Of a stretch of 64,000 nucleotides of DNA, positions 24,131 to 38,597 are shown piece by piece. Below the pieces are notes generated by a model that saw nothing but the letters and a program-made list of their open reading frames with translations, ran no database searches and was not told the DNA's origin. Source of the DNA: Dorea longicatena (GTDB taxonomy: Bacteria > Bacillota > Clostridia > Lachnospirales > Lachnospiraceae); NCBI RefSeq assembly GCF_025150085.1, contig NZ_CP102280.1, positions 1,313,001-1,377,000 on the forward strand. Reading direction: 5' to 3'. A program made the translations under genes and the position numbers. The first letter of the stretch is position 1, and every line of letters starts with the position of its first letter.

Positions 24131-24182
24131 AAAATAACAGAGACGAAAGTTTTTTAACAATCTTTCGTCTCTGTTATTTTTT
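24131..24182. terminator. Bidirectional terminator between gpsA and the LysR gene
   Basis: A 19-bp perfect stem (24131-24149 with 24162-24180) has a 12-nt loop, A runs on the left and T runs on the right. It serves converging transcripts; the LysR stop codon begins at its right edge. Confidence 0.9.
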
Positions 24183-25068
24183 ACAGGTCTGCGTGTTCGG
24201 TTACGTATTTTTTAAAGTCCATGATAACAGGCGCCTGATAAACATTCTTTAAAGTAGCCATATAAAAGAGTCTTTCCCAGGAAGGCTTTTCGATTTCGAT
24301 AATGGATACAGGCATATAGGAAAGAACCGGCATCTTTGGAACAACTGCGATACCGAAGCCTGCACCGACAAGACCGGCAACTCCCTGGTCTTCTTCCATA
24401 GAGTAGGCAATTTGCGGATAACCTCCGCATTTTTTAAACAATTTGTCAATGACATGTCTTAAGCCGCTTCGCTTGGAAAATGCAATGTGCGGATAAGCAA
24501 GTGTATCTTTCAGATCAATAGAGCTGCGTCCTTCCAGTGGATGACCTTTGGGTACGATCAACACCAGTTCCTGCTTTGCGACAGGTGTGAATTCAATCAG
24601 CGGCTCATTGTCCATCATAGAGCAAAATGCGATGTCATATTTCCGGTCTTTTAATCCCTGAATCATATCAGAAGTAAGACCTGTGGAACTATGAAAATAA
24701 AAATCAATTTTTTTATCCGGCGTAGAATCCAGAAATCCTTTTACGAAATTGGGAACAACGGTACTGCTTAGAGCACGAAGTTCCACGATATCGATACGAC
24801 CTTCGCCACGACCTGTCATCTGAAGCTTGTTAACGCTGGAATCAATCATATCCAAAGCCTGTTCAACATCAATAAGAAAAGCCTGTCCACATTTGGTAAG
24901 TGCTACATTACGGCCCTCCTTCTCGAAAAGTTTTACCCCTAGTTCCTTTTCAAGAGATGCAATAGCATGACTCAGACTTGGCTGAGTGATGGCAAGAATT
25001 TCAGCGGCTTTTGTGTAATGCTCCAGATGGGCCAGTGTGGCAAAATATCTTAGATGATACAGATTCAT
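24181..25068 (-). CDS. LysR-family transcriptional regulator of the shikimate/quinate-type cluster
   Basis: A 295-residue regulator. The winged helix-turn-helix occupies about residues 1-60 (YFATLAHLEHYTKAAEILAITQPSLSHAI), followed by the LysR linker helix and a substrate-binding domain with VELRALSSTVVPNFVKGF and LVGAGFGIAVVPK. It is transcribed away from the catabolic operon at 25.3 kb, the classic arrangement for a LysR protein that activates the divergent operon and represses itself. The inducer is inferred to be a pathway compound such as shikimate, quinate or a dehydro form; nothing in the sequence proves this. The RBS GAAAGGGGG precedes the start. Confidence 0.92.
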   Translation of the reverse strand: MNLYHLRYFATLAHLEHYTKAAEILAITQPSLSHAIASLEKELGVKLFEKEGRNVALTKCGQAFLIDVEQALDMIDSSVNKLQMTGRGEGRIDIVELRALSSTVVPNFVKGFLDSTPDKKIDFYFHSSTGLTSDMIQGLKDRKYDIAFCSMMDNEPLIEFTPVAKQELVLIVPKGHPLEGRSSIDLKDTLAYPHIAFSKRSGLRHVIDKLFKKCGGYPQIAYSMEEDQGVAGLVGAGFGIAVVPKMPVLSYMPVSIIEIEKPSWERLFYMATLKNVYQAPVIMDFKKYVTEHADL

Positions 25069-25176
25069 AAAGCCGGCCCCCTTTCTTTCGTTATATTTAT
25101 ATATGTTTATATCTTATCATGAACGGAAGGTAAAAACCTATGAATAAAATCTATAAATTAAAATAAAATAACTAAT

Positions 25177-25205
25177 TTGTTTTTTATTTAACAAGGATAT
25201 ATAAT
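25177..25205 (+). promoter_or_regulatory. Promoter of the TIM-barrel/OYE/shikimate dehydrogenase/MFS operon
   Basis: TTGTTT at 25177-25182 and an exact TATAAT at 25200-25205 are 17 bases apart, within the 215-base divergent gap. The AT-rich stretch just upstream (25100-25170) is the likely LysR-binding region, but no clear T-N11-A dyad could be singled out. Confidence 0.6.
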
Positions 25206-25283
25206 CAAACCATAGCAAATATTACTAGATTGAACATTGAGAAAAAAGGGAATCTGTTCAATTTTAACAATGGAGGTAGAATT

Positions 25284-26120
25284 ATGTCAAAAAAGAATCC
25301 AATCACAGTAAGTTCATGGACACTTGGAGATCAGTGCAAATTTGAAGATCGTGTTATCGCTGCAAAAGAAGCAGGATACGAAGGAATCGGTCTTCGTGCA
25401 GAGACTTATGTTGATGCTTTGAATGAAGGACTTCATGATGAAGACATTCTTGCAATTCTTGACAAACATGACATGAAAGTAACAGAAGTTGAGTACATCG
25501 TTCAGTGGTGTGAAGAACATCGTTCATACGAGCAGAAATACAAAGAGCAGATGTGCTTCCATATGTGTGAACTCTTCGGAGTTGGTCATATCAACTGTGG
25601 ACTGATGGAAAACTACTCAGTAGAATATACAGCTCAGAAATTAAAAGAACTCTGCCAGAGAGCTGGAAAATATATCATCGGTGTTGAGCCAATGCCATAC
25701 AGTGGTATTCCAAACCTTCAGAAAGGCTGGGAAGTTGTAAAAGCTTCTGGATGTGAGAATGCAATGCTTATCCTTGATACATGGCACTGGGTAAGAGCTA
25801 ATCAGCCATATGACATCCTGACACCGGAAATCGCTAAGAAAGTTATTTCTATCCAGATCAACGATGCTTACGAGAGACCATACGCAGATTCAATCTTAAG
25901 AGATGAGTCAATGCATGATCGTCTTGCACCTGGAACAGGAGCAAAAGACACAGCCGGATTTGTTAAGATGATCAAAGATGCCGGAGTTGATCCAAAGGTT
26001 ATCGGTGTAGAAGTAATTTCTGATGAGATCCTTGGAAGAGGACTTAAAGAAGCAGCTGCTTATACATATGAAAATACAGAAAAAGTATTAAAAGAAGCTT
26101 GGCCAGAAATGGTTGACTAA
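25284..26120 (+). CDS. TIM-barrel sugar-phosphate isomerase/3-dehydroshikimate dehydratase-like protein
   Basis: A 278-residue protein of the xylose isomerase-like TIM-barrel family; the ATG at 25284 has GGAGG 9 bases upstream. Likely divalent-metal ligands lie in GVEPMPYS, ILDTWHW, IQINDA and GVEVISDE. The LDTWHW...IQINDA...RLAPGTG...GVEV order is also found in TIM-barrel 3-dehydroshikimate dehydratases (AsbF/QuiC type) and in many hydroxy-sugar isomerases. Given shikimate dehydrogenases, dehydroquinate dehydratase and an enoate-type reductase in the same cluster, a dehydratase or isomerase acting on 3-dehydroshikimate or a relative is a fair inference, but the sequence alone does not fix the substrate. 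It is first in the operon. Confidence 0.75.
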   Translation: MSKKNPITVSSWTLGDQCKFEDRVIAAKEAGYEGIGLRAETYVDALNEGLHDEDILAILDKHDMKVTEVEYIVQWCEEHRSYEQKYKEQMCFHMCELFGVGHINCGLMENYSVEYTAQKLKELCQRAGKYIIGVEPMPYSGIPNLQKGWEVVKASGCENAMLILDTWHWVRANQPYDILTPEIAKKVISIQINDAYERPYADSILRDESMHDRLAPGTGAKDTAGFVKMIKDAGVDPKVIGVEVISDEILGRGLKEAAAYTYENTEKVLKEAWPEMVD

Positions 26121-26162
26121 TTTAGAAAACACATTTGATCAAAAGAGAGAGGTAAAAAAATA

Positions 26163-28133
26163 ATGAAGTTCAAACATATGTTTTCTCCGATTCAGATCGG
26201 ACCAATGACAGTAAAGAACCGTTTCGTAGTACCACCAATGGGAAACAACTTTGCAAAAACAGATGGAACATGGAGCGATGAGTCTGTTGCATACTATGCT
26301 GAACGTGCAAAAGGTCAGTTCGGTCTGATTACAATTGAAGCAACAGTAGTTCATAAAGGTGCAAAGGGCGGCCCAAGAAAACCTTGTCTGTATGATGATA
26401 ACAGCATCGAGAGCCTGAAGAAGATTACCGATGCCTGTCATGCAGAAGGTGCTAAGATTTCTATTCAGCTTCAGAATGCAGGTCCGGAAGGAAATGCTAA
26501 GAATGCAGGAGCACCAATCCAGGCGGCAACATCTATTGCAGCAGCTGATGGAAGAGATATTCCGGAAGCAGTTCCTACAGAGCAGGTATATGAGCTCATT
26601 AAAGGATACGGAGATGCAGCAGTCCGCGCAATGAAGGGCGGAGCCGATGCAGTAGAAATTCACATGGCACATGGTTATCTTGTGAATTCTTTTATGTCAC
26701 CAAGAACGAACAAACGTGTAGACGAATTTGGTGGAAACTTCGAAAACAGAATGAGATTTTCCCGTCTGATCGTTGAAGAAGTAAAGAAGAGAACAGAAGG
26801 TAAAATCGCAGTTCTTGCACGTATTAACAGTACAGAAGATATGTTTGGCGGTCTGGATAATCACGATATGTGTGCAATCGCTTCTTATCTTGAAGACTGT
26901 GGAGTCGATGGACTTCACGTATCACGTGCAGTGCATCTGAAAGATGAATATATGTGGGCTCCAACAGGAATTCATGGCGGATTCTCTGCAGAGCTCGTAG
27001 CAAATATCAAAAATTGTGTATCCGTTCCGGTTATCACAGTCGGACGTTACACAGAGCCACAGTTCGCTGAACAGATGGTAAAACTTGGAAAAGCGGATCT
27101 GGTAGCATTCGGACGTCAGTCACTGGCTGATCCTCATACTCCGGAAAAGGCTCAGGAAGAAAGACTGGAAGATATGACACCTTGTATCGCATGTCTGCAG
27201 GGATGCGTTGCCAACATGTATGCAGGTAAACCTCTTTGCTGTCTGGTAAACCCAGTACTTGGACGTGAAGTTGAGGGACTTCCGAAAGCGGAAAAAGCAA
27301 AGAAAGTATACGTTATCGGTGGCGGTGTAGCAGGTATGTGTGCAGCATTCACAGCTAAGAGACGTGGACATGATGTAACATTATTTGAAGCAACAGATAA
27401 ACTTGGCGGAAACATGAGACTGGCTGCTTACCCGCCGGGAAAAGGTGACATCACAGGTATGATCAGAAGCTATATCGTAAAATGCGAAAAAGCCGGCGTA
27501 AATATCAAGATGAACACAAAAGTAACAGCTCAGATGTTAAAAGAAGATACACCGGATGCTGTTATCCTCGCAACAGGATCTGAAACATTAGTTCTTCCAT
27601 TTATCAAAGGTATCCATAATCCTGATATCGTATATGGTGTGGACTGCCTGGAAGGAACACGTCCGGTAGGACATAAAGTTTTAGTTGTAGGTGGAGGTAT
27701 GGTAGGTGCCGAGACAGCAGATTTCCTTGCTGAACAGGGACATGAAGTATCTGTTATCGAGATGAGAGATGCGATCGGACCAGACGTAATCCACGAGCAT
27801 CGTATCTTCCTTATGGAAGCCTTCGAAAAATACGGAATCGAGCAGATTACAAGCGCTGCTGTATCTGAAATCTTCTCAGATGGAGTAAGCTACAAGAATG
27901 CAGCGGATAAGTCTGATGAGACTATCTATGAAGCAAGAGGATTCGATACTGTAGTTCTTTCTATGGGATTCAGCTCCCGTTATACACACCGCGATGGTCA
28001 GAATGTTGTATATGACTTCGCTGATGAATTAAAGGACATCGTTCCGGAAGTTCATGTAGTAGGTGATGCAGTAAGAGCACGTCGTGCACTGGATGCTACA
28101 AAAGAAGCTTATGATGTGGCATTAAAACTTTAA
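26163..28133 (+). CDS. Old-yellow-enzyme-type NADH:flavin oxidoreductase with 4Fe-4S cluster and FAD/NAD domain
   Basis: A 656-residue protein laid out like 2,4-dienoyl-CoA reductase (FadH), trimethylamine dehydrogenase and BaiCD/BaiH. Residues about 1-340 are the FMN TIM barrel with the active-site segment HMAHGYLVNSFMSPRTNKR and GGNFENRMRF. The cluster ligands are C-x2-C-x3-C-x11-C (CIACLQGC to CCLVNP) near 342. The C-terminal half carries two nucleotide-binding motifs (VIGGGVAGMCAA and VVGGGMVGAETA). Such enzymes reduce C=C bonds activated by a carbonyl or thioester. Next to shikimate-type genes, reduction of the ring double bond of a dehydroshikimate-like enone is plausible but unproven. 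Confidence 0.9.
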   Translation: MKFKHMFSPIQIGPMTVKNRFVVPPMGNNFAKTDGTWSDESVAYYAERAKGQFGLITIEATVVHKGAKGGPRKPCLYDDNSIESLKKITDACHAEGAKISIQLQNAGPEGNAKNAGAPIQAATSIAAADGRDIPEAVPTEQVYELIKGYGDAAVRAMKGGADAVEIHMAHGYLVNSFMSPRTNKRVDEFGGNFENRMRFSRLIVEEVKKRTEGKIAVLARINSTEDMFGGLDNHDMCAIASYLEDCGVDGLHVSRAVHLKDEYMWAPTGIHGGFSAELVANIKNCVSVPVITVGRYTEPQFAEQMVKLGKADLVAFGRQSLADPHTPEKAQEERLEDMTPCIACLQGCVANMYAGKPLCCLVNPVLGREVEGLPKAEKAKKVYVIGGGVAGMCAAFTAKRRGHDVTLFEATDKLGGNMRLAAYPPGKGDITGMIRSYIVKCEKAGVNIKMNTKVTAQMLKEDTPDAVILATGSETLVLPFIKGIHNPDIVYGVDCLEGTRPVGHKVLVVGGGMVGAETADFLAEQGHEVSVIEMRDAIGPDVIHEHRIFLMEAFEKYGIEQITSAAVSEIFSDGVSYKNAADKSDETIYEARGFDTVVLSMGFSSRYTHRDGQNVVYDFADELKDIVPEVHVVGDAVRARRALDATKEAYDVALKL

Positions 28134-28225
28134 TCATTATATATAGAAATTGTAAGAAATGTGTATGTGACAGCTCGTAGTATGCGGGCTGTTATGAATA
28201 AAAGAAAACCAGGAGGGTTAAGATC

Positions 28226-29101
28226 ATGGAAAAAAGAATTTCCGGACATACAGGCTTAATGGCATTATTTGGAACACCAGTTGGACATTCAGGATCTCCT
28301 GCAATGTACAACTTCAGCTTCCAGCATGATGGCTTAGATTATGCTTATATGGCATTTGATGTAACAGAAGAGGAAATGCCAAAAGTATTCGAGTCTATTC
28401 GTTTATTAAATATGCGTGGTGGTAACTTCACTATGCCATGCAAGAACATCGCAGCACAGCTGGTAGATAAGCTGTCACCTGCAGCTGAGATTATCGGAGC
28501 CTGCAATGTATTTGTTAACGATGACGGAGTGATCACAGGACACATTACAGACGGTGTCGGATTTGTTAAGAATCTGGAACTCAACGGAGTACCTGTAAAA
28601 GACAAAAAGGTTGTTGTTCTTGGAGCAGGCGGAGCTGCTACAGCAATTCAGGTTCAGCTGGCACTGGACGGAGCAAAAGAAGTAAATATCTTCAATATTA
28701 AAGATAAATTCTTCGAAAGAGCAGAAGGAACAAAGGCCAAATTAGCTGAAAAGTGCCCAGAGTGTGTAGTTACAGTAGACGACCTTGACGACAAGGCAAA
28801 ACTGGAAGAAGCAATCAAAGCATGTGATATTCTTGTAAATGCTACAATTATGGGAATGAAACCACACCAGGATGTAACACTGGTAGATAAATCATTATTC
28901 CGTAAGGATCTGGTTGTTGCAGATACTGTATACAGCCCGGAAAAAACAAAGATGATCCTGGAAGCAGAAGAAGCAGGATGCAAGGCAATCGGCGGAGTAG
29001 GAATGCTTCAGCAGCAGGGAGCAGTAAACTATGGGCTGTTCGTAGGAAAAGAAATGCCGCTTGCTGAGTATCAGGAATTTCAGAAAGCACAGGCAAAATA
29101 A
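28226..29101 (+). CDS. Shikimate/quinate dehydrogenase family protein (first copy)
   Basis: A 291-residue member of the AroE/YdiB family, which interconverts 3-dehydroshikimate and shikimate, or 3-dehydroquinate and quinate, with NAD(P). The substrate-binding S-x-S (HSGSP) is near residue 20, the catalytic Lys in NFTMPCKN near 71, TDGVGF near 110 and the Rossmann loop LGAGGAATAI near 133. Its sequence is clearly different from the second copy at 33 kb (for example NFTMPCK against NVSMPNK). The operon setting with transporters and a reductase favours a catabolic role. RBS AGGAGGG. A small gap of about 90 bases with no clear terminator precedes it. Confidence 0.88.
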   Translation: MEKRISGHTGLMALFGTPVGHSGSPAMYNFSFQHDGLDYAYMAFDVTEEEMPKVFESIRLLNMRGGNFTMPCKNIAAQLVDKLSPAAEIIGACNVFVNDDGVITGHITDGVGFVKNLELNGVPVKDKKVVVLGAGGAATAIQVQLALDGAKEVNIFNIKDKFFERAEGTKAKLAEKCPECVVTVDDLDDKAKLEEAIKACDILVNATIMGMKPHQDVTLVDKSLFRKDLVVADTVYSPEKTKMILEAEEAGCKAIGGVGMLQQQGAVNYGLFVGKEMPLAEYQEFQKAQAK

Positions 29102-29128
29102 AACAACTTGATAAAGGAGAATGAGGGA

Positions 29129-30415
29129 ATGAAAGCAAAGAAATATTTATGGTCTATCATCTGTGTATATTTTTGCTATCTGACACATGGTATTCAGGCA
29201 ATCATTTTAAGCCAGAATAATGTGAATTTCGCAAAACAGTGGGGATTCAATATGTCAGATCCGCAGTCGGCAGCATATGCAGCAGGACTTGCAGCAGTAA
29301 GTACCGCAGTAGCATGGACTGGATTTGGTAAATTCGTAAGCGTATGGATCGGTGGAGAGATCTCAGACCGTGTCGGACGTAAGAAACTGATGATCGGTGG
29401 AGCAGCGTTATATATTATCTGCTTCCTTGGATTCTTATTTACTAAGAATGCACTGGTTGCTTCTGTATGCGGTTTTGCATCTGGAGTTGCAACTTCTGGA
29501 TTCTGGGATGCTTCAGGATATCCTGCAGTACAGGAAGCTTATCCGGCAGCACCTGGATCAGCACTTGTAGGAATCAAATTCTTCGTTTCACTGTCAGGTA
29601 TGGTATATCCACTTCTGGTTGTACATAACGCAAACAGCGGAAACTGGAAATTAAATGTTATGATTCCGGTAGTTATGTCAATTATCTGTCTGGTACTTGC
29701 AATTATCGCACCATTCGTATATGATGATCAGAAGAAGGCATCAGAAGGAACTGATGGCAAATCAAAAGATGCAGTGCAGGCAGAGATCGATGCAGCGAAA
29801 GCAGCAATGCTTACAAAGCCAGGGAAATTTGTAGTATTTCTGGTAATGTTTTATGCATTCCTTTGCATGGCAATCATGTATGGTGCTCAGCAGTATACAA
29901 AAGCGTTCGGATTATCCGTATGTGGACTTTCTGAGATGCAGGCAGCAGGTATGACTTCTATCTATACGATTGGTTCTATCTGTGCAGTACTTTTCTGGGC
30001 ATTCATGATGGCTAAATTAAAATGGAGCCCGCTGAAAGTTGTCTTGATTGATTCTATCTGTACTGCAGTAGCACTTGCAGGTGTTCTGTTTATTCATCAG
30101 GTAGCAATTATCTACATTGCAATTGCAATGTTAGGATTCTTTGCAGCAGGTGGTGCTCTTCAGACTGGTCTTGCAGTGGTTCAGTTATTCAACCCGGGAC
30201 CAAAGGGAAGAAACACAGGTATTTATTACACATTTATGGGTGCAGCAAGCTACCTGATTCCGGTAGTAGCAGCACAGCTTACAAAAGCATCTGGTGAGGC
30301 AAATGCAGTATACAGCCTCATGATTATGTTATTAGTATTTGCAATCCTTGCTATTTTAAGTTCCCTCTACTTAGTAGCACAGCACAAGAAAATCTTCGGA
30401 AAGAGTGCATTGTAA
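29129..30415 (+). CDS. MFS transporter
   Basis: A 428-residue major facilitator with about 12 membrane segments. The ATG at 29129 is preferred to the TTG at 29108 because AAAGGAGA lies 8 bases before it. The MFS loop motif GGEISDRVGRKK follows the second or third segment, and a hydrophilic central loop (about residues 205-230) is rich in Lys/Asp/Glu. Placed directly after the shikimate dehydrogenase gene, it probably imports the pathway substrate (quinate, shikimate or similar) across the cytoplasmic membrane; this is inferred from context only. It is the last gene of the operon and is followed by a repeat and a terminator. Confidence 0.85.
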   Translation: MKAKKYLWSIICVYFCYLTHGIQAIILSQNNVNFAKQWGFNMSDPQSAAYAAGLAAVSTAVAWTGFGKFVSVWIGGEISDRVGRKKLMIGGAALYIICFLGFLFTKNALVASVCGFASGVATSGFWDASGYPAVQEAYPAAPGSALVGIKFFVSLSGMVYPLLVVHNANSGNWKLNVMIPVVMSIICLVLAIIAPFVYDDQKKASEGTDGKSKDAVQAEIDAAKAAMLTKPGKFVVFLVMFYAFLCMAIMYGAQQYTKAFGLSVCGLSEMQAAGMTSIYTIGSICAVLFWAFMMAKLKWSPLKVVLIDSICTAVALAGVLFIHQVAIIYIAIAMLGFFAAGGALQTGLAVVQLFNPGPKGRNTGIYYTFMGAASYLIPVVAAQLTKASGEANAVYSLMIMLLVFAILAILSSLYLVAQHKKIFGKSAL

Positions 30416-30429
30416 AATATAATCAAGAA

Positions 30430-30474
30430 TACAGAAAACCTGCCACCGGCAACTTTTCTTGTATATTTGGTATA
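30430..30474 (-). repeat. Dispersed palindromic repeat, copy 5
   Basis: A minus-orientation copy of 45 nt beginning 14 bases after the MFS stop. Its outer stem reads AGAAAA/TTTTCT instead of AGAGAA/TTCTCT, so both arms have changed together and pairing is kept. Confidence 0.85.
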
Positions 30475-30475
30475 A

Positions 30476-30524
30476 AAAGGGACTGTTGTTCCGAATAATG
30501 ACGGATAGACAGTCCCTTTCTTTT
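30476..30524 (+). terminator. Terminator after the MFS gene
   Basis: An 11-bp stem (30476-30486 with 30509-30519) contains a smaller inner CCG/CGG pairing and is followed by CTTTTAA. It directly abuts repeat copy 5. Confidence 0.75.
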
Positions 30525-30587
30525 AACATGGTATTGTTAAAAAAAAGACATTCATAGAAAATGTCGAAGAAATAGAGGAAAATACAG

Positions 30588-30635
30588 GTTATTCCATAGA
30601 TATTTTTTATGGAATAACTGATATTATGTTATAGT
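30588..30635 (+). promoter_or_regulatory. Operator-like dyad overlapping the permease promoter
   Basis: An 11-bp perfect inverted repeat (GTTATTCCATA at 30588-30598; complement at 30608-30618, 9-nt spacer). Its right arm overlaps a candidate -35 (TTATGG, 30607-30612) placed 17 bases before TATAGT at 30630-30635. This geometry suits a repressor or LysR-type site controlling the permease gene separately from the upstream operon. Nothing else was recognised in the rest of the 292-base gap. Confidence 0.5.
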
Positions 30636-30707
30636 AAATTTTTGATTCCTGAAGCATACGAAAAAATTGTATGTAAAAATTATTAAAACGAAGGAGGACG
30701 CTCAAAG

Positions 30708-32141
30708 ATGAGTCCGAAAAAAGCAAAAAGAGCTAATGAACTTCCTTATATTCCTCTTGGACCATTTCAGTGGAGAATTCCTGGAATCCATTACAGAGTA
30801 GAATATGTGGAATTTTTTCAGGGTCTGATCCTTGGCGCTACAGCTTTAAGTTCCATTCCGTACCTGACTGATAATCTTGGACTTCCATATGAACTTGCAT
30901 GGAGCTGTGTCATCATTGAAGTATTTATGTATATGCTTCATGGATGGTTAGGAGATCCGGTAGTCCCGGGATGGATTACTCCGACACTTCCATTTACCCT
31001 GGCGTATTTAAATGGGTTTGAAAAAGGACCAGACAGAATCCAGGCGATGATCGCATTGCAGCTTCTGGTCGCATTTGTATTTATATTTATGGGAATTACG
31101 AAACTGGCAGACAAATTTGTAAATGGTGTGCCAAATTCAATTAAAGGTGGTATCCTGATCGCAGCACCGATTACGGTATTGCAGGGACAATTATCAGATG
31201 GAAGCCAGCTTATGACGGCACCGGTAGCAACGCTTGCCGGTACATTATTACTTGCATTTTTAAGCTTTTCACCGTTCTGTGAAAAGAACAGAAGTAAATA
31301 TAAGATATTAGATATTATGGCAAAATACGGCAACTTGTTCCCATATCTGATCGCTATGGTGGCAGGAGTTGCGCTTGGAGAATTATCAAAACCTGTATTA
31401 GAACTTGGAACAGTCATCAGAATTCCTGATTTCAGTAATATATTCCATACAGTCAGTATCTTTGCGGTAGGTTTTCCGCCGCTTTCGAAATTTATCAGTG
31501 CCATACCTCTGGCTTTGATCTGTTATGTACTGGCGTTTGGAGATTTTGTTACATCGAAGACGCTGGTAGAGGAAGCGCAGGAGAGCAGAAGTGATGAATA
31601 TATCGACTTTAACTCAAGCAGATCTAATCTGATCAGTGGCTTAAGAAACCTGATCCTTGCAATTTTTGCACCATTCCCACCGCTGGCAGGACCGTTATGG
31701 GTTGGAATGACCGTATCAGTAGCGATGCGTTACAAAGAAGGAAAGAAAGCAATGAAATCATTGATTGGTGGAATGAGTTCTTTCCGTATGGCGACATTTA
31801 TCAGTGTTATCCTGGTACCGATCGTATCTTTCATGAAACCAATCATGGGAGTCGGATCAGCAATTACATTATTGTTCCAGGCTTATGTCTGTGCCAGAAT
31901 TGGTATGGAATACTGTCAGTCTAACACAGATAAGAGTATTGCAGGTGTTATGGCAGCGGTATTGGCGTTCAAAGGATCCGGATGGGCATTGCTCGTCGGC
32001 TTTGCAATGAACCTGTTACTTTCTAATATGGATTTCCAGAAGAAAAAACTGGGAGTGCTTACAACAGAGGAACTGGATCAGGTAGATGCCAAAAGAGATG
32101 AAGAAGCGCAGAGGCTTCTTACACAGAAAAAACAGGGATAA
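30708..32141 (+). CDS. Polytopic permease, NCS2/SulP-like (solute carrier 23-type)
   Basis: A 477-residue membrane protein with roughly 11-14 hydrophobic segments. Features reminiscent of the nucleobase/sulfate transporter fold are the early FQGLILGATALSSIPYL segment, VPNSIKGGILIAAPITVL, and APFPPLAGPLWVGMTVSVAMRY. It is not close enough to classical xanthine/uracil or sulfate permeases for me to name a substrate. It lies between the MFS/shikimate dehydrogenase operon and the convergent aroE-aroD pair, so uptake of a related cyclic carboxylate is a reasonable guess. It has its own promoter with a dyad. RBS AAGGAGGA. Confidence 0.75.
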   Translation: MSPKKAKRANELPYIPLGPFQWRIPGIHYRVEYVEFFQGLILGATALSSIPYLTDNLGLPYELAWSCVIIEVFMYMLHGWLGDPVVPGWITPTLPFTLAYLNGFEKGPDRIQAMIALQLLVAFVFIFMGITKLADKFVNGVPNSIKGGILIAAPITVLQGQLSDGSQLMTAPVATLAGTLLLAFLSFSPFCEKNRSKYKILDIMAKYGNLFPYLIAMVAGVALGELSKPVLELGTVIRIPDFSNIFHTVSIFAVGFPPLSKFISAIPLALICYVLAFGDFVTSKTLVEEAQESRSDEYIDFNSSRSNLISGLRNLILAIFAPFPPLAGPLWVGMTVSVAMRYKEGKKAMKSLIGGMSSFRMATFISVILVPIVSFMKPIMGVGSAITLLFQAYVCARIGMEYCQSNTDKSIAGVMAAVLAFKGSGWALLVGFAMNLLLSNMDFQKKKLGVLTTEELDQVDAKRDEEAQRLLTQKKQG

Positions 32142-32209
32142 AAAATATGTGCCTGTGTTATGTTGTGTGGCAGGATAATATATTAAAATAAATGTAATAA
32201 ATATAAAAT

Positions 32210-32249
32210 GAGGGCCTGTGGGAATATCCATGGGCCCTCTCTCTTTTTT
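32210..32249 (+). terminator. Terminator between the permease and aroD
   Basis: GAGGGCC and GGGCCCTC arms (32210-32222 with 32228-32239) are followed by a CTCTTTTTT run. Genes converge here, so it ends the permease transcript and perhaps also the minus-strand one. Confidence 0.8.
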
Positions 32250-32255
32250 CGTTTT

Positions 32256-33017
32256 TTACAATGCATCGTGCACAATCTGAAGTGCCTGATGTAATTTTTC
32301 TGCTCCGATCTGTCCAGGTGCAGAAGCCTGTGCTCCGGAACCAAATGTCAGACAGGAACCAAATGCCTCGCAGGCAATACGGCTGATACTTCCAAGTCCA
32401 GCCATAGACATGGTGATGATCGGTCTGTCGGCATAGTCTGATGCCATCTCTTCAGTAGCAGAAAGAAGGGTCAGAACATCTTTTTTGGTCTGTGGCATAA
32501 CAGCCATTTTAGGAATATCGGCCCCCATATCCTGCATTTTGCGGAGACGGTAAATGAGATCAGATTTGGCAGGTGTTTTGTCAAAATCATGATTAGAGGC
32601 AATGACCTTTGCACCGGAAGCGTGGATTGCATCAATCATCTCCCGTACAGTGTCATCTCCTGTAAAGATCTCTACGTCAATAATATCAGCATTGCCGGTT
32701 GCTGCAACTGCTTTGTTAAGTTCGGCATATTTTTCTGTGGACATTGGATGTACGCCGCCTTCTTTGTCTGTACGGAAGGTACAGAGAAGAGGAGTATCGC
32801 CCATTACATCACGAAGTTCTTTGACGAGTTCTGTGACTTTTGCAATATCTTCAACATCTTCGTACCAGTCCATCCGCCATTCCATCAGATCCATATGCAT
32901 GTCAAGATATGTACGGGTAAGGGAAAGGATGTCTTCTTTTGCCTTTCCGACATTAGGAATGCAGATTGCCGGAATTCCATTTCCGAGTTCCAGATTTCTT
33001 ACTTTTACAGTGTTCAT
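32256..33017 (-). CDS. aroD: Type I 3-dehydroquinate dehydratase
   Basis: A 253-residue Schiff-base enzyme that interconverts 3-dehydroquinate and 3-dehydroshikimate. I use the start at 33017 (MNTVKVRNLELG), with AAGGAGAA 8 bases upstream, rather than an earlier ATG inside the preceding gene. The catalytic His is in ASNHDFDKTP, the Schiff-base Lys in PKMAVMPQ, and the lid in MAGLGSISR...SAPGQIG. Its partner just upstream is a shikimate dehydrogenase. Type I enzymes serve biosynthesis in some bacteria and quinate breakdown in others; the setting here favours a role in the surrounding cluster, though a biosynthetic role is not excluded. Confidence 0.95.
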   Translation of the reverse strand: MNTVKVRNLELGNGIPAICIPNVGKAKEDILSLTRTYLDMHMDLMEWRMDWYEDVEDIAKVTELVKELRDVMGDTPLLCTFRTDKEGGVHPMSTEKYAELNKAVAATGNADIIDVEIFTGDDTVREMIDAIHASGAKVIASNHDFDKTPAKSDLIYRLRKMQDMGADIPKMAVMPQTKKDVLTLLSATEEMASDYADRPIITMSMAGLGSISRIACEAFGSCLTFGSGAQASAPGQIGAEKLHQALQIVHDAL

Positions 33018-33030
33018 AGAAAAATTCTCC

Positions 33031-33918
33031 TTAATCTTCATAAACGTAGGAAATTCCCAGTTTTTCTTTCATGTATTCACTGTCCACACGCTTGCCGAGG
33101 ATCAGTTCGATAGCTGCAATTGCCTGGAAGAGCATCATGCCCTGTCCGTTCATTGTTTTACATCCGGCGTGTCTTGCCATTTTCAACATTGCTGTTTCGT
33201 GTGGGGCGTAGACAACGTCTGTGACGATAAGATCAGGACGGAAGAAAGAAGGATCAGGAATATAAGTGATTCCTTCGAGTGGCTTCATTCCAACGCCTGT
33301 GGCATTTGTGAAAAGATAAGAAGAATGCATCTCTTCTTTTAATTTATCCAGATCTTCTAGAGGGTAGAATGTTGCTTTACAATTGGTATTTTCGTTAATT
33401 TTCTTTACCGTATCGAGTGCATTCTGTTTGAACTTGTCATCTCTTGCGAAGATAGACATCTCAGCAACACCATCCAGTGCAGCCTGGATCTCAACAGCAG
33501 TAGCAGCTCCGCCGGAACCTACAATTGTTACTTTCTTTCCGGTAGGGTCAATGTCATTGTCCTTTAAAGACTGTACATAACCGATACCGTCTGTGATGTG
33601 TCCGACCAGGTAGCCGTCTTTATTGACGATGGTATTTACCGCACCACAGAGTTTGGCAGCCGGAGAGATTTCATCCAGATACTGATGTACGATTGTCTTA
33701 TTTGGCATAGAAACATTGGCACCACGCATCTTCAGTGCGCGTAAGCCCTTGATTGCATCTTCAAGTTCAGGTGCATCTACTTCAAATGCAAGATTTACAA
33801 TGTCAACACCTAGCTTTTCGTAAGCTGCATTATGTGTTGCAGGTGACTGCGAGTGGCGGATTGGATAAGCCAGAAGACCGATTAATTCGGTGTGTCCGGT
33901 AATCTGATGTCTTTCCAT
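33031..33918 (-). CDS. aroE: Shikimate dehydrogenase (second copy)
   Basis: A 295-residue AroE-family enzyme. It shows RHSQSPATHNAAYEKLG at the N-terminus (S-x-S carboxylate-binding motif), the catalytic Lys in NVSMPNKTIV near residue 74, GAVNTIV, TDGIGY and the Rossmann loop VGSGGAATAV. NGQGMMLFQ near the C-terminus matches the family GLGML-Q site. aroD follows 13 bases later on the same strand, so the two form an operon converging on the permease gene. It differs clearly from the copy at 28.2 kb, suggesting divided substrates (shikimate and quinate) or divided roles. Confidence 0.92.
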   Translation of the reverse strand: MERHQITGHTELIGLLAYPIRHSQSPATHNAAYEKLGVDIVNLAFEVDAPELEDAIKGLRALKMRGANVSMPNKTIVHQYLDEISPAAKLCGAVNTIVNKDGYLVGHITDGIGYVQSLKDNDIDPTGKKVTIVGSGGAATAVEIQAALDGVAEMSIFARDDKFKQNALDTVKKINENTNCKATFYPLEDLDKLKEEMHSSYLFTNATGVGMKPLEGITYIPDPSFFRPDLIVTDVVYAPHETAMLKMARHAGCKTMNGQGMMLFQAIAAIELILGKRVDSEYMKEKLGISYVYED

Positions 33919-34065
33919 AATAAGAATCTCCTTTTTGTAATAAAACTTTATCTTTGCTTATATTTTAACAAATTACAGATGCATAAACAAATGCTAAACA
34001 GATACGGAAATGATAGAAAATGACTATTGATCTGTAGTGAAAGTTCTATAAAGAGCGAAGAAGTG

Positions 34066-35603: not shown

Positions 35604-35633
35604 TTGAAATATAGAATAGAATGTGTCTATAAT
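35604..35633 (+). promoter_or_regulatory. Promoter upstream of the alcohol dehydrogenase leader
   Basis: TTGAAA at 35604-35609 and an exact TATAAT at 35628-35633 are 18 bases apart. Transcription would start near 35640, upstream of the hairpin at 35651-35690. Confidence 0.65.
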
Positions 35634-35690: not shown

Positions 35691-35726
35691 CCATAATAGA
35701 CAATAAGAATCTGGAGGATGATAAAA

Positions 35727-36875
35727 ATGAAAGATTACACGTTCAAAGTACCGCAGGATATTGTATTTGGTGTAGGCTCTTTAAAAAGACTGCCGGAGCT
35801 TCTTGAAAAAAGCGGATCTAAAAAGATGATGGTAGTATCAGACAGAGGACTGGAGAAATTAGGAGTCATACAGAAAGTGCTGGATATTGTGGAGGCAGAA
35901 GGTATAGAAACAGTAAGTTTCCTTGATATTCTTCCAAACCCTACAGTAGATATGGTAAATGCGGCGACAAAGGTATATAAGGAATCAGGAGCGACAAGTA
36001 TAGTTGCACTTGGAGGAGGAAGCCCGATGGATGTTGCCAAGGCAGTAGGTGTTCTGGCAAGATACGGCGGATCCATTACAGAGTATGAAGGTGCACATCT
36101 TGTTCCGGGACCGATCGAACCAATCATAGCAATCCCTACTACAGCAGGTACCGGAAGTGAAGTTACGGCGTTCTCCGTTATTACAGATACCTCCAGAAAT
36201 TATAAATTAACGGTTTTTAGCTATGAATTACTTCCAAAATACGCACTGTTAGATCCGGAGATGATCATGTCTGTACCACCGATGGTTGCGGCTTCATGTG
36301 GAATTGATGCACTGATCCATGCATGGGAAGCATATACATCACTTGGCGCTTCACCGTTTTCTGATGCAATGGCAGAAAAAGCAATGGAACTGATCGGCGG
36401 TAATATCCGTAGATTTGTGGCAAACAGAAAGGACGAGGAAGCTGCATGTGCAATGATGTCAGGAAGTATGTTTGCGGGAATTGCATTTGCTTGGGCAAGA
36501 CTTGGAGATGTACATGCCATGTCACATCCGGTCAGCGCATTCTTTGGTGTACAGCATGGAGTGGCCAATTCAATCCTTCTTCCGGTAATTGTAGAATATA
36601 ATGCGCTGGCAGATCATGGACGTTACGAAAAGATTTACAATTATATCAGCGAAGAAAAAGAGCCGGTGAAAGATTTTAAACCGGAAATGCTGGTAGAAGA
36701 AATCAAGAAACTGAATGCATCTCTGGGAATTCCAAAAACACTTTCCGAGGTCGGTGTAACCGAAGATAAGATTCCACAGATGGCTGCAGATGCGATGAAG
36801 AGTGGAAATATTGCGGCTAATCCAAGACAGACAACATTAAAGGATGTGGAGATGTTGTACCGCAAAGCTTTATAG
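35727..36875 (+). CDS. Iron-containing alcohol dehydrogenase
   Basis: A 382-residue group III alcohol dehydrogenase. The ATG at 35727 is 9 bases from GGAGG; an earlier ATG at 35718 abuts the RBS and is less likely. The nucleotide-binding GGGSPMDVAKAVG is near residue 95, AIPTTAGTGSEVT near 136 and the metal-binding His cluster in HAMSHPVSAFFGVQHG near 268. These enzymes reduce aldehydes to alcohols (butanol, ethanol, propanediol) to recycle NADH in fermentation; the substrate here cannot be told. It is monocistronic and possibly controlled by a leader hairpin. Confidence 0.92.
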   Translation: MKDYTFKVPQDIVFGVGSLKRLPELLEKSGSKKMMVVSDRGLEKLGVIQKVLDIVEAEGIETVSFLDILPNPTVDMVNAATKVYKESGATSIVALGGGSPMDVAKAVGVLARYGGSITEYEGAHLVPGPIEPIIAIPTTAGTGSEVTAFSVITDTSRNYKLTVFSYELLPKYALLDPEMIMSVPPMVAASCGIDALIHAWEAYTSLGASPFSDAMAEKAMELIGGNIRRFVANRKDEEAACAMMSGSMFAGIAFAWARLGDVHAMSHPVSAFFGVQHGVANSILLPVIVEYNALADHGRYEKIYNYISEEKEPVKDFKPEMLVEEIKKLNASLGIPKTLSEVGVTEDKIPQMAADAMKSGNIAANPRQTTLKDVEMLYRKAL

Positions 36876-38230: not shown

Positions 38231-38580
38231 GCAAGTAAGACAGGTAATCGCAGCTGCAGATGCCGAAAGGCAGCAGGTGAGGAAAGTCCGGGCTTCACAG
38301 GGCAGGATGCCGGATAACGTCCGGTGGAGGCGACTCCAAGGATAGTGCAACAGAAATATACCGCCAGGATATAATTCTGGTAAGGGTGGAAGGGCAGTGT
38401 AAGAGACTACCGCCTTGCTGGTAACAGCAGGGGCATATGTAAACCCCATTCGAAGCAAGACCGGATAAAGACAATGTGGCGGCCCGTCACGTCTTAGGTA
38501 GGTTGCTTGAACCCATTGGTAACGATGGGTCTAGAAAGATGATTACCCAACGACATAACCCGGCTTATCGTTTTGCTTGC
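38231..38580 (+). ncRNA. rnpB: RNase P RNA
   Basis: The catalytic RNA of RNase P, which matures tRNA 5' ends. The universal segments are present: GAGGAAAGTCCGGGCT near 38279, the GAGACTACCGCC stretch near 38403, and the closing ACATAACCCGGCTTATCG near 38552. The P1 helix is formed by GCAAG at the 5' end and CTTGC at the 3' end, giving about 350 nt. It has its own promoter and terminator. Ends are placed by the P1 pairing and may be off by a few bases. Confidence 0.95.
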
Positions 38581-38597
38581 AATTTGAATGAATATAA

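Follow-up and report, generated by a model that had tools for sequence, protein, structure and literature searches.

Does a cluster of shikimate-handling genes in Dorea longicatena serve the dissimilation of plant acids, the cell's own aromatic synthesis, or both? The cluster lies at 24181-33918 of a 64,000-nucleotide stretch of contig NZ_CP102280.1 (assembly GCF_025150085.1, positions 1,313,001 to 1,377,000), here called the window. Quinic and shikimic acids are common plant acids. In a 2024 study of the coffee microbiome (PMC11602726), the gut enzymes that degrade quinic acid are described as mostly not known, and two proposed gut routes are mentioned, one in which quinic acid is oxidised to protocatechuic acid and one in which it is reduced to hexahydrobenzoic acid. 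A paper on this cluster in gut Clostridia was not found in the open-licence literature, searched by title and start of abstract, outside which most subscription papers lie. Our analysis makes it reasonably probable that the cluster is amphibolic, with one unit (A) taking shikimate to protocatechuate, a second unit (B) supplying the cell's own aromatic synthesis, and the two roles mixed.

The genes fall into two units. Unit A (24181-32141) comprises a LysR-type regulator divergent from genes for a TIM barrel, an old-yellow-enzyme (OYE) reductase, a first shikimate dehydrogenase (AroE1), an MFS transporter and a permease; unit B (32256-33918) is an aroE2-aroD pair that is convergent to A and whose genes overlap by 11 bases. 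The features are as follows.

24181..25068, minus strand: LysR-type regulator (P0001) with HTH_1 and LysR_substrate domains, like Lmo0488 (QuiR); nearest solved protein 5ted
25132..25161, plus strand: predicted LysR operator in the divergent LysR/TIM promoter region, matrix score 22.0
25284..26120, plus strand: TIM-barrel dehydratase (P0002), AP_endonuc_2 family, likely a QuiC2-type 3-dehydroshikimate dehydratase; nearest Lmo2234
26163..28133, plus strand: Fe-S flavin OYE reductase (P0003), like BaiCD and FadH, with Oxidored_FMN and Pyr_redox_2 domains
28226..29101, plus strand: AroE1 (P0004), module-type shikimate dehydrogenase, above the NF009200 cut-off
29129..30415, plus strand: MFS transporter (P0005), MFS_1 family, in an open reading frame from TTG 29108
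30589..30618, minus strand: weak operator-like site before the permease (score 6.2), also readable as a terminator-like stem
30708..32141, plus strand: NAT/PurT-type permease (P0006), matching PurT (7tak)
32256..33041, minus strand: aroD (P0007), type I 3-dehydroquinate dehydratase, above the TIGR01093 cut-off
33031..33918, minus strand: aroE2 (P0008), YdiB-like shikimate/quinate dehydrogenase, above the NF001313 cut-off
34013..34027, plus strand: ATAG-N7-CTAT dyad upstream of aroE2, weak as an operator (matrix 2.6)

For the TIM-barrel gene the long open reading frame begins at TTG 25230 and ATG 25284 fits best as the start, while the MFS gene probably starts at ATG 29129, downstream of AAAGGAG. 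A preliminary description of this DNA, made from the letters alone, had assigned eight open reading frames to named families, and the list of reading frames together with Pfam and NCBIfam scans bore these out in place: the two shikimate dehydrogenases are indeed different (both Shikimate_dh_N, 43% identical to one another) and the type I dehydroquinate dehydratase has its DHquinase match. The "second permease" of that description is likewise a transporter, through its match to PurT and not through Pfam or NCBIfam, and the single gene set that it had drawn gives way to two units. Its TIM-barrel isomerase/dehydratase was correct as to family, but it had not named this protein as the key dehydratase.

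A constraint on the function of the cluster comes from the rest of the genome, which is assembled as one contig of 2.92 Mb and is 99.87% complete. Family searches identified two Shikimate_dh_N proteins and one type I dehydroquinate dehydratase, all three inside the cluster; the same searches of the genome found no type II dehydroquinate dehydratase, no second aroD, and no aroE beyond the cluster. Other pathway genes lie outside it: DAHP synthase (aroF) adjoins aroB, there are two shikimate kinase domains, one of them fused to chorismate mutase (CM), and aroC and pheA, named from sequence, are inside the window. Since the only AroD/AroE set found lies in the cluster and further genes of the pathway sit outside it, some of the cluster has to serve biosynthesis if the pathway operates. 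The preliminary description had taken the distant position of aroC and pheA as support for a separate catabolic role, an argument that fails now that the cluster is seen to hold the only AroD and AroE proteins found in the genome. It had also named, as fatal to its own proposal, the discovery that these genes are the cell's sole biosynthetic AroD/AroE set; half of this is in hand, as they are the only set found and stand alongside pathway genes elsewhere. A version in which the AroE genes of the cluster are spares beside a biosynthetic set elsewhere was rejected, no other AroD or AroE having been found in the genome.

Of 200 family genomes, 114 were found to have a type I dehydroquinate dehydratase and 81 a type II; three genomes (G030, G075 and G169; genome and locus handles begin with G and L, respectively) have both types and eight have neither, by comparison of the lists by eye. 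Type I thus evidently serves as a regular enzyme of biosynthesis in the family, and the two types are almost mutually exclusive across its genomes. Unit B, which holds the only AroD and one of the two AroE proteins, most likely serves biosynthesis and may have a second use as well: in the cell's own shikimate pathway AroD and AroE2 would catalyse steps 3 and 4, and they could in addition admit quinate as 3-dehydroquinate.

We then asked what unit A might do, beginning with its TIM barrel. P0002 belongs to AP_endonuc_2, the xylose-isomerase-like TIM barrels of Pfam, and its nearest solved protein, 55% identical, is Lmo2234 of Listeria monocytogenes, which we take to be the QuiC2 dehydratase, reportedly the subject of a paper by Xue, Prezioso and Christendat in 2020. 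Its structural model has a pLDDT (predicted local distance difference test) of 82, and Foldseek returned 2g0w, 3u0h, 5hmq and 1i60 in that order. Among the best 80 of 131 confirmed relatives, residues E135, D165, H168, Q191, S209, H211, R213 and E243 are invariant (80/80), and Glu135, Asp165, Gln191 and Glu243, together with an SxHxR motif, align onto residues of QuiC1 (5hmq) in an alignment that is itself weak (E 0.039 alone, 3.7e-4 by profile). In QuiC1 the Glu, Asp, Gln and Glu residues are metal ligands; the Gln common to QuiC1 and P0002 aligns with a His in IolI and 3u0h. Because these residues match QuiC1 and are invariant in all 80 relatives, the conversion of 3-dehydroshikimate to protocatechuate is the best-supported reaction, and P0002 is likely, judged by its sequence, to be a QuiC2-type 3-dehydroshikimate dehydratase. 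The sugar isomerase considered as an alternative identity for P0002 was rejected in view of its nearest relative, the QuiC1 alignment and its gene neighbourhood. Within the family, a close relative (at least 66% identity, with matches at or below 35% dropped) is encoded by 8 of the 200 genomes, the genome under study included; ten more have such weak matches alone, and G085 has one as a second match.

The neighbourhoods of these 80 relatives link the TIM barrel to shikimate metabolism. A search across relatives had been suggested in the preliminary description, and the arrangement of LysR divergent from the TIM barrel, an OYE or short-chain dehydrogenase (SDR), AroE and MFS does recur in the named loci, and unit A is thereby spread over the Firmicutes. 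In 61 of the 80 the TIM gene is immediately preceded by a divergent LysR gene; an AroE-type gene follows within four genes in 73 and an MFS gene in 64, with eight of the 80 loci running out within four genes of the TIM gene. By title these loci come from Lachnospiraceae, other Clostridia, Megasphaera, Eggerthellaceae, Coriobacteriia, streptococci, lactobacilli, Eremococcus and Gemella, and records with relatives include Blautia, Dorea, Anaerobutyricum and Megasphaera. The permease has a relative in 19 of the 80 loci, and the entire order, including permease and convergent AroD/AroE2, was found again in Blautia loci L065, L069, L070 and L072 and in genome G102. An alignment of 128 AroE-type sequences from the named loci, with its motif table read by eye, places the two window proteins in distinct groups: AroE1 in one that mostly shares HSGSPAMYN, GNFTMPxK and GACN[V/T/A]F, and AroE2 in a YdiB-like group with HSxSPxxHN and N[VI]SMPNK. 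The Lys and Asp that are catalytic in the AroE superfamily are kept in both window proteins and in all 128 rows. The nearest solved protein for both is the shikimate dehydrogenase 3tnl, a Listeria protein. Relatives of AroE2 at 59% identity or above occur in 12 of the 200 family genomes, including its own, the next best match being at 49%.

A route through unit A can be proposed from these assignments. The MFS transporter, and perhaps the NAT permease too, would import shikimate; AroE1 would oxidise it to 3-dehydroshikimate; and the QuiC2-type TIM barrel would dehydrate this to protocatechuate, which is probably excreted. Degradation without oxygen, as the preliminary description put it, is too strong a term, as no protein family of the cluster, which is as far as the search for such functions went, opens a ring or decarboxylates, and for the same reason the products are probably excreted. 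Conversion of shikimate to protocatechuate gives one NAD(P)H per molecule, and unless the ring is cleaved none of the carbon becomes available to the cell; shikimate would act as an electron sink and not as a carbon source. The Fe-S OYE could return electrons to a conjugated ring, probably spending the NAD(P)H of AroE1, and most simply on 3-dehydroshikimate, which as a conjugated ketone is a plausible OYE substrate. P0003, at 656 residues, has an FMN domain, a cysteine motif and a FAD/NAD domain, scores under the threshold of each of the 25 NCBIfam families shown (against the BaiCD model NF041087 it reaches 518.1 of 825 bits), and keeps Cys 341, 344, 348 and 360 together with His167, His170 and Tyr172 in 51 of 51 relatives.

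This enzyme opens the way to a different and rather unlikely reading, in which the cluster is mainly reductive: the TIM barrel and OYE would, in turn, strip hydroxyls and saturate the ring, leading toward dihydroshikimate and dihydroxycyclohexane carboxylate; AroE1 would act as the final reductase, and protocatechuate would be a minor product. Of 57 non-lactic loci, 51 do have an OYE gene no more than four genes from the TIM gene, against none of 23 loci of Lactobacillales and Gemella, where an SDR takes its place in all 23 (for example L047, L074 and L066) and in none of the other 57, a split that is descriptive and no independent test, since the lactic group was drawn up from SDR-bearing loci and then compared with record titles. 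The changed motifs of the AroE1 clade (GACN[VTA]F, GNFTMP) and the route to hexahydrobenzoic acid mentioned in PMC11602726 would also suit reduction. However, the QuiC-type residue pattern favours aromatisation, the changed AroE1 position varies between Val, Thr and Ala from member to member, and some lactic bacteria make reduced acids, yet their loci here are those without an OYE.

Regulation provides a further line of evidence for an amphibolic cluster. The best solved relative of P0001 is 5ted, the Lmo0488 protein (E 1.1e-43 over residues 89-290), which we take to be QuiR, the shikimate-responsive activator of the L. monocytogenes qui1 and qui2 operons. The LysR/TIM intergenic regions of relatives have in common a motif around ATAG-N7-CTAT. 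From 63 extracted regions, the window's included, we built a matrix on 35 distinct sites of relatives that contain AAAATCTAT or GAAATCTAT, leaving out the window and excluding regions with neither from training. The region between P0001 and P0002 gave the score of 22.0, the next best place in the window reaching 9.5; in a random control of 6 Mb on both strands, 53 places scored at least 10, four at least 15 and none 20 or more (maximum 18.8). The scan of the genome itself covered 114 kb, made up of the window and three stretches selected because aroB or the shikimate kinases lie there. One of these stretches, 0.2 Mb from the cluster, holds a second Fe-S OYE gene (OYE2, 33% identical to P0003) divergent from the CM-shikimate kinase fusion gene (1,127,007-1,130,064; L148:5007-8064). 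Between the two lies the strongest site in the 114 kb (25.0, at 1,129,110-1,129,139), with nothing above 2.8 in the other two stretches. Unit A and the OYE2/CM-shikimate kinase locus are thus predicted to form one regulon, in which the LysR protein would bind this predicted motif; the QuiR-like regulator would switch on unit A, and probably the second locus too, when shikimate is present.

In relatives, where scoring with one locus left out still keeps the sites of close relatives and the values are not fully independent, the motif also fronts OYE genes, and it stands before CM-shikimate kinase in Blautia L063, L069, L070 and L072 (13.4-17.5), with the L065 site behind that gene. Eleven loci of Clostridium and Streptococcus have it ahead of aroD or aroE2 (16.0-27.2), as do L044 and L093 (14.1 and 14.7), and L049, L058 and L059 have it ahead of a gene resembling an esterase gene (15.7-21.1). 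Upstream of aroE2 in the window the best score ranks only 12th (2.6), and the corresponding values are -2.9 to -15.3 before Blautia aroD/aroE2 and -10.1 in the G102 stretch. Such weak scores would fit a unit B kept outside the regulon where biosynthesis needs it. Two ATAG-N7-CTAT dyads are seen in the window, with 1.0 expected. The aroE2 site was set aside as an operator because of its weakness, as was the permease site, although its 6.2 is the fifth best of 127,942 window positions. An exact dyad at 35616-35630 stands upstream of an iron alcohol dehydrogenase gene (35718-36875), and an operator for this gene was set aside despite the dyad, the matrix score being -6.6.

Other genomes show how far the units can separate. 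In G005 (97% complete, 6% contaminated) unit A occurs with one AroE, and neither aroB nor a dehydroquinate dehydratase of type I or II was found, so that unit A there should start from shikimate and not from quinate. In G085 (95% complete, one contig) aroB and a single aroD lie apart from unit A, and its sole PF08501 (Shikimate_dh_N) match, at E 9.6e-24, fits the AroE1 orthologue of unit A (1.2e-23 when scanned alone), which would make AroE1 its shikimate dehydrogenase if the pathway works. The only AroD and AroE found in G102 and G124 sit in a LysR/transporter cluster, with aroB elsewhere; G163 (87% complete) has aroB and one AroE, and a dehydroquinate dehydratase was not found in it; in G104 and G119, AroD and one more AroE are encoded away from the module. 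G124 belongs to the same genus as the window and has no TIM gene. Its AroD and AroE lie in a second type of Lachnospiraceae locus, in which five of the AroE2 relatives are found (L143, L189, L192, L193 and L196) and which consists of LysR, OYE2, AroE2, MFS, AroD and a TRAP transporter with no TIM gene, and which in L193 and L196 includes the CM-shikimate kinase fusion. The best matrix scores in these loci are 19.8 (L189), 12.2 (L192), 10.4 (L193), 4.3 (L143) and 3.3 (L196). L190 and L191 have TRAP genes without OYE2, L195 is a short contig, and L194 (in G168) has AroE2, AroD and CM-shikimate kinase with no recognised transporter.

These comparisons bear on whether the whole cluster, AroD and AroE2 included, might be purely catabolic, with biosynthesis left to other genes. 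The conserved position of AroD/AroE2 beside unit A in the four Blautia records, and the motif before aroD or aroE2 in the Clostridium and Streptococcus loci and in L044 and L093, are what one would expect of such a cluster. Against this, a nearly complete genome equipped with aroB, shikimate kinases, aroC and pheA contains no other AroD or AroE that we could find, and the operator is weak before the window aroE2 and missing before its Blautia counterparts, so that we consider a purely catabolic cluster very unlikely. What remains of the quinate/shikimate dissimilation under LysR control that the preliminary description proposed is a LysR-linked module of the Listeria qui kind, and not a cluster that is separately catabolic throughout. 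We give equally little credence to an ordinary biosynthetic AroD/AroE2 pair beside an unrelated unit A acting on some other cyclic polyol or sugar acid: the TIM fold is common to sugar isomerases and epimerases, Lmo2234 was deposited as a putative sugar isomerase and the permease resembles PurT, but the AroE-type neighbours with their conserved Lys and Asp, Gln191 and SxHxR as in QuiC1 and unlike IolI, the Lmo0488-like LysR, and a motif that in relatives also precedes genes for AroD, AroE2, CM-shikimate kinase and OYE all speak for shikimate.

Several observations weigh against our preferred reading of an amphibolic cluster. With regard to the TIM barrel, the SxHxR stretch (201-220) is a low-confidence part of the model (pLDDT <50), sugar epimerases nearly equal QuiC1 in fold score, the dehydratase AsbF comes just 33rd by fold, and the cut-off of the NCBIfam QuiC model NF042435 was missed (22.9 of 1200 bits), although that model spans 635 positions and two domains and describes QuiC, not QuiC2, so that a protein with one domain has little chance of attaining it. 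For the permease, Pfam and NCBIfam gave no match at E<=0.001, and its nearest protein, the solved transporter 7tak (sequence E 4.2e-94; Foldseek E 2.2e-27 on a model of pLDDT 75), carries the name PurT. The SDR that stands in for the OYE in 23 loci implies that the OYE is not essential to the module. Members of the AroE2 clade, with G168 as an exception, are mostly found in uptake-type clusters and not in plain aro operons, as one would expect if a catabolic enzyme did double duty; and in G145 (99% complete), where aroB was not found, an AroD-AroE2 pair lies near a CitMHS-type transporter, indicating that such pairs can be purely dissimilatory. Finally, no strong site precedes aroD/aroE2 in Megasphaera L095 and L096, in L106, L066, L068, L071, L091 and L060, or in L075, L076, L080, L081, L082 and L092; some of these loci have another AroE, and in relatives the two units therefore do not differ cleanly in their operators.

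A bolder proposal, which we put forward only tentatively and regard as rather doubtful, is that the LysR system directs plant shikimate among three fates: up to chorismate (through AroE2 and CM-shikimate kinase), out of the cell as protocatechuate (through the QuiC2-type enzyme), or to reduction by the Fe-S OYEs, with steps 3 and 4 of aromatic amino acid synthesis having been taken over by a shikimate/quinate uptake regulon in several Lachnospiraceae. If true, the cluster would be a switch among biosynthesis, salvage and redox disposal working on a few common metabolites. For the amphibolic cluster itself, the locus offers candidate genes for the shikimate part of the gut quinate/shikimate routes, with a predicted operator and with genomes that separate the roles, and it cautions that neighbourhood alone does not justify calling aroD and aroE in such clusters catabolic.

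Two further observations were made along the way. Genes for alpha/beta hydrolases of one family lie near the module in L047, L049, L053, L058, L059, L094, L098 and L102 (the two scanned are Abhydrolase_3), and may possibly be esterases for quinate or shikimate esters; three of these genes are preceded by an operator match. Within the window, a bacterial RNase P class A RNA is found at 38232-38583 (300 bits).

How does the cluster compare with known systems? With the Fe-S OYEs BaiCD, FadH and bilirubin reductase, P0003 has in common the FMN domain, cysteine motif and FAD/NAD domain, but it falls below the family cut-offs and is tied to shikimate genes. The second Lachnospiraceae locus type uses the same gene families as the window cluster and differs by its TRAP transporter and its lack of a TIM dehydratase. 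The closest likeness is to Listeria qui1 and qui2: the LysR of the cluster is nearest Lmo0488, its TIM barrel nearest Lmo2234 and both its AroE proteins nearest 3tnl, and, as in Listeria, an Lmo0488-type LysR adjoins AroE, OYE, TIM and MFS genes. The Listeria operons also include AroD, and one LysR serves two operons there. The aerobic catabolism by QuiC1, QsuB and AroZ, as set out in PMC9324987 and PMC7442255, has the 3-dehydroshikimate dehydratase step in common with unit A, in line with the residues that align with 5hmq, whereas here the enzyme is a single-domain TIM barrel and no beta-ketoadipate genes are among the families of the cluster. Unlike the Listeria qui systems, the window cluster contains the only AroD and AroE found in its genome, has an extra NAT permease, and has as its predicted second target OYE2 together with the CM-shikimate kinase fusion.

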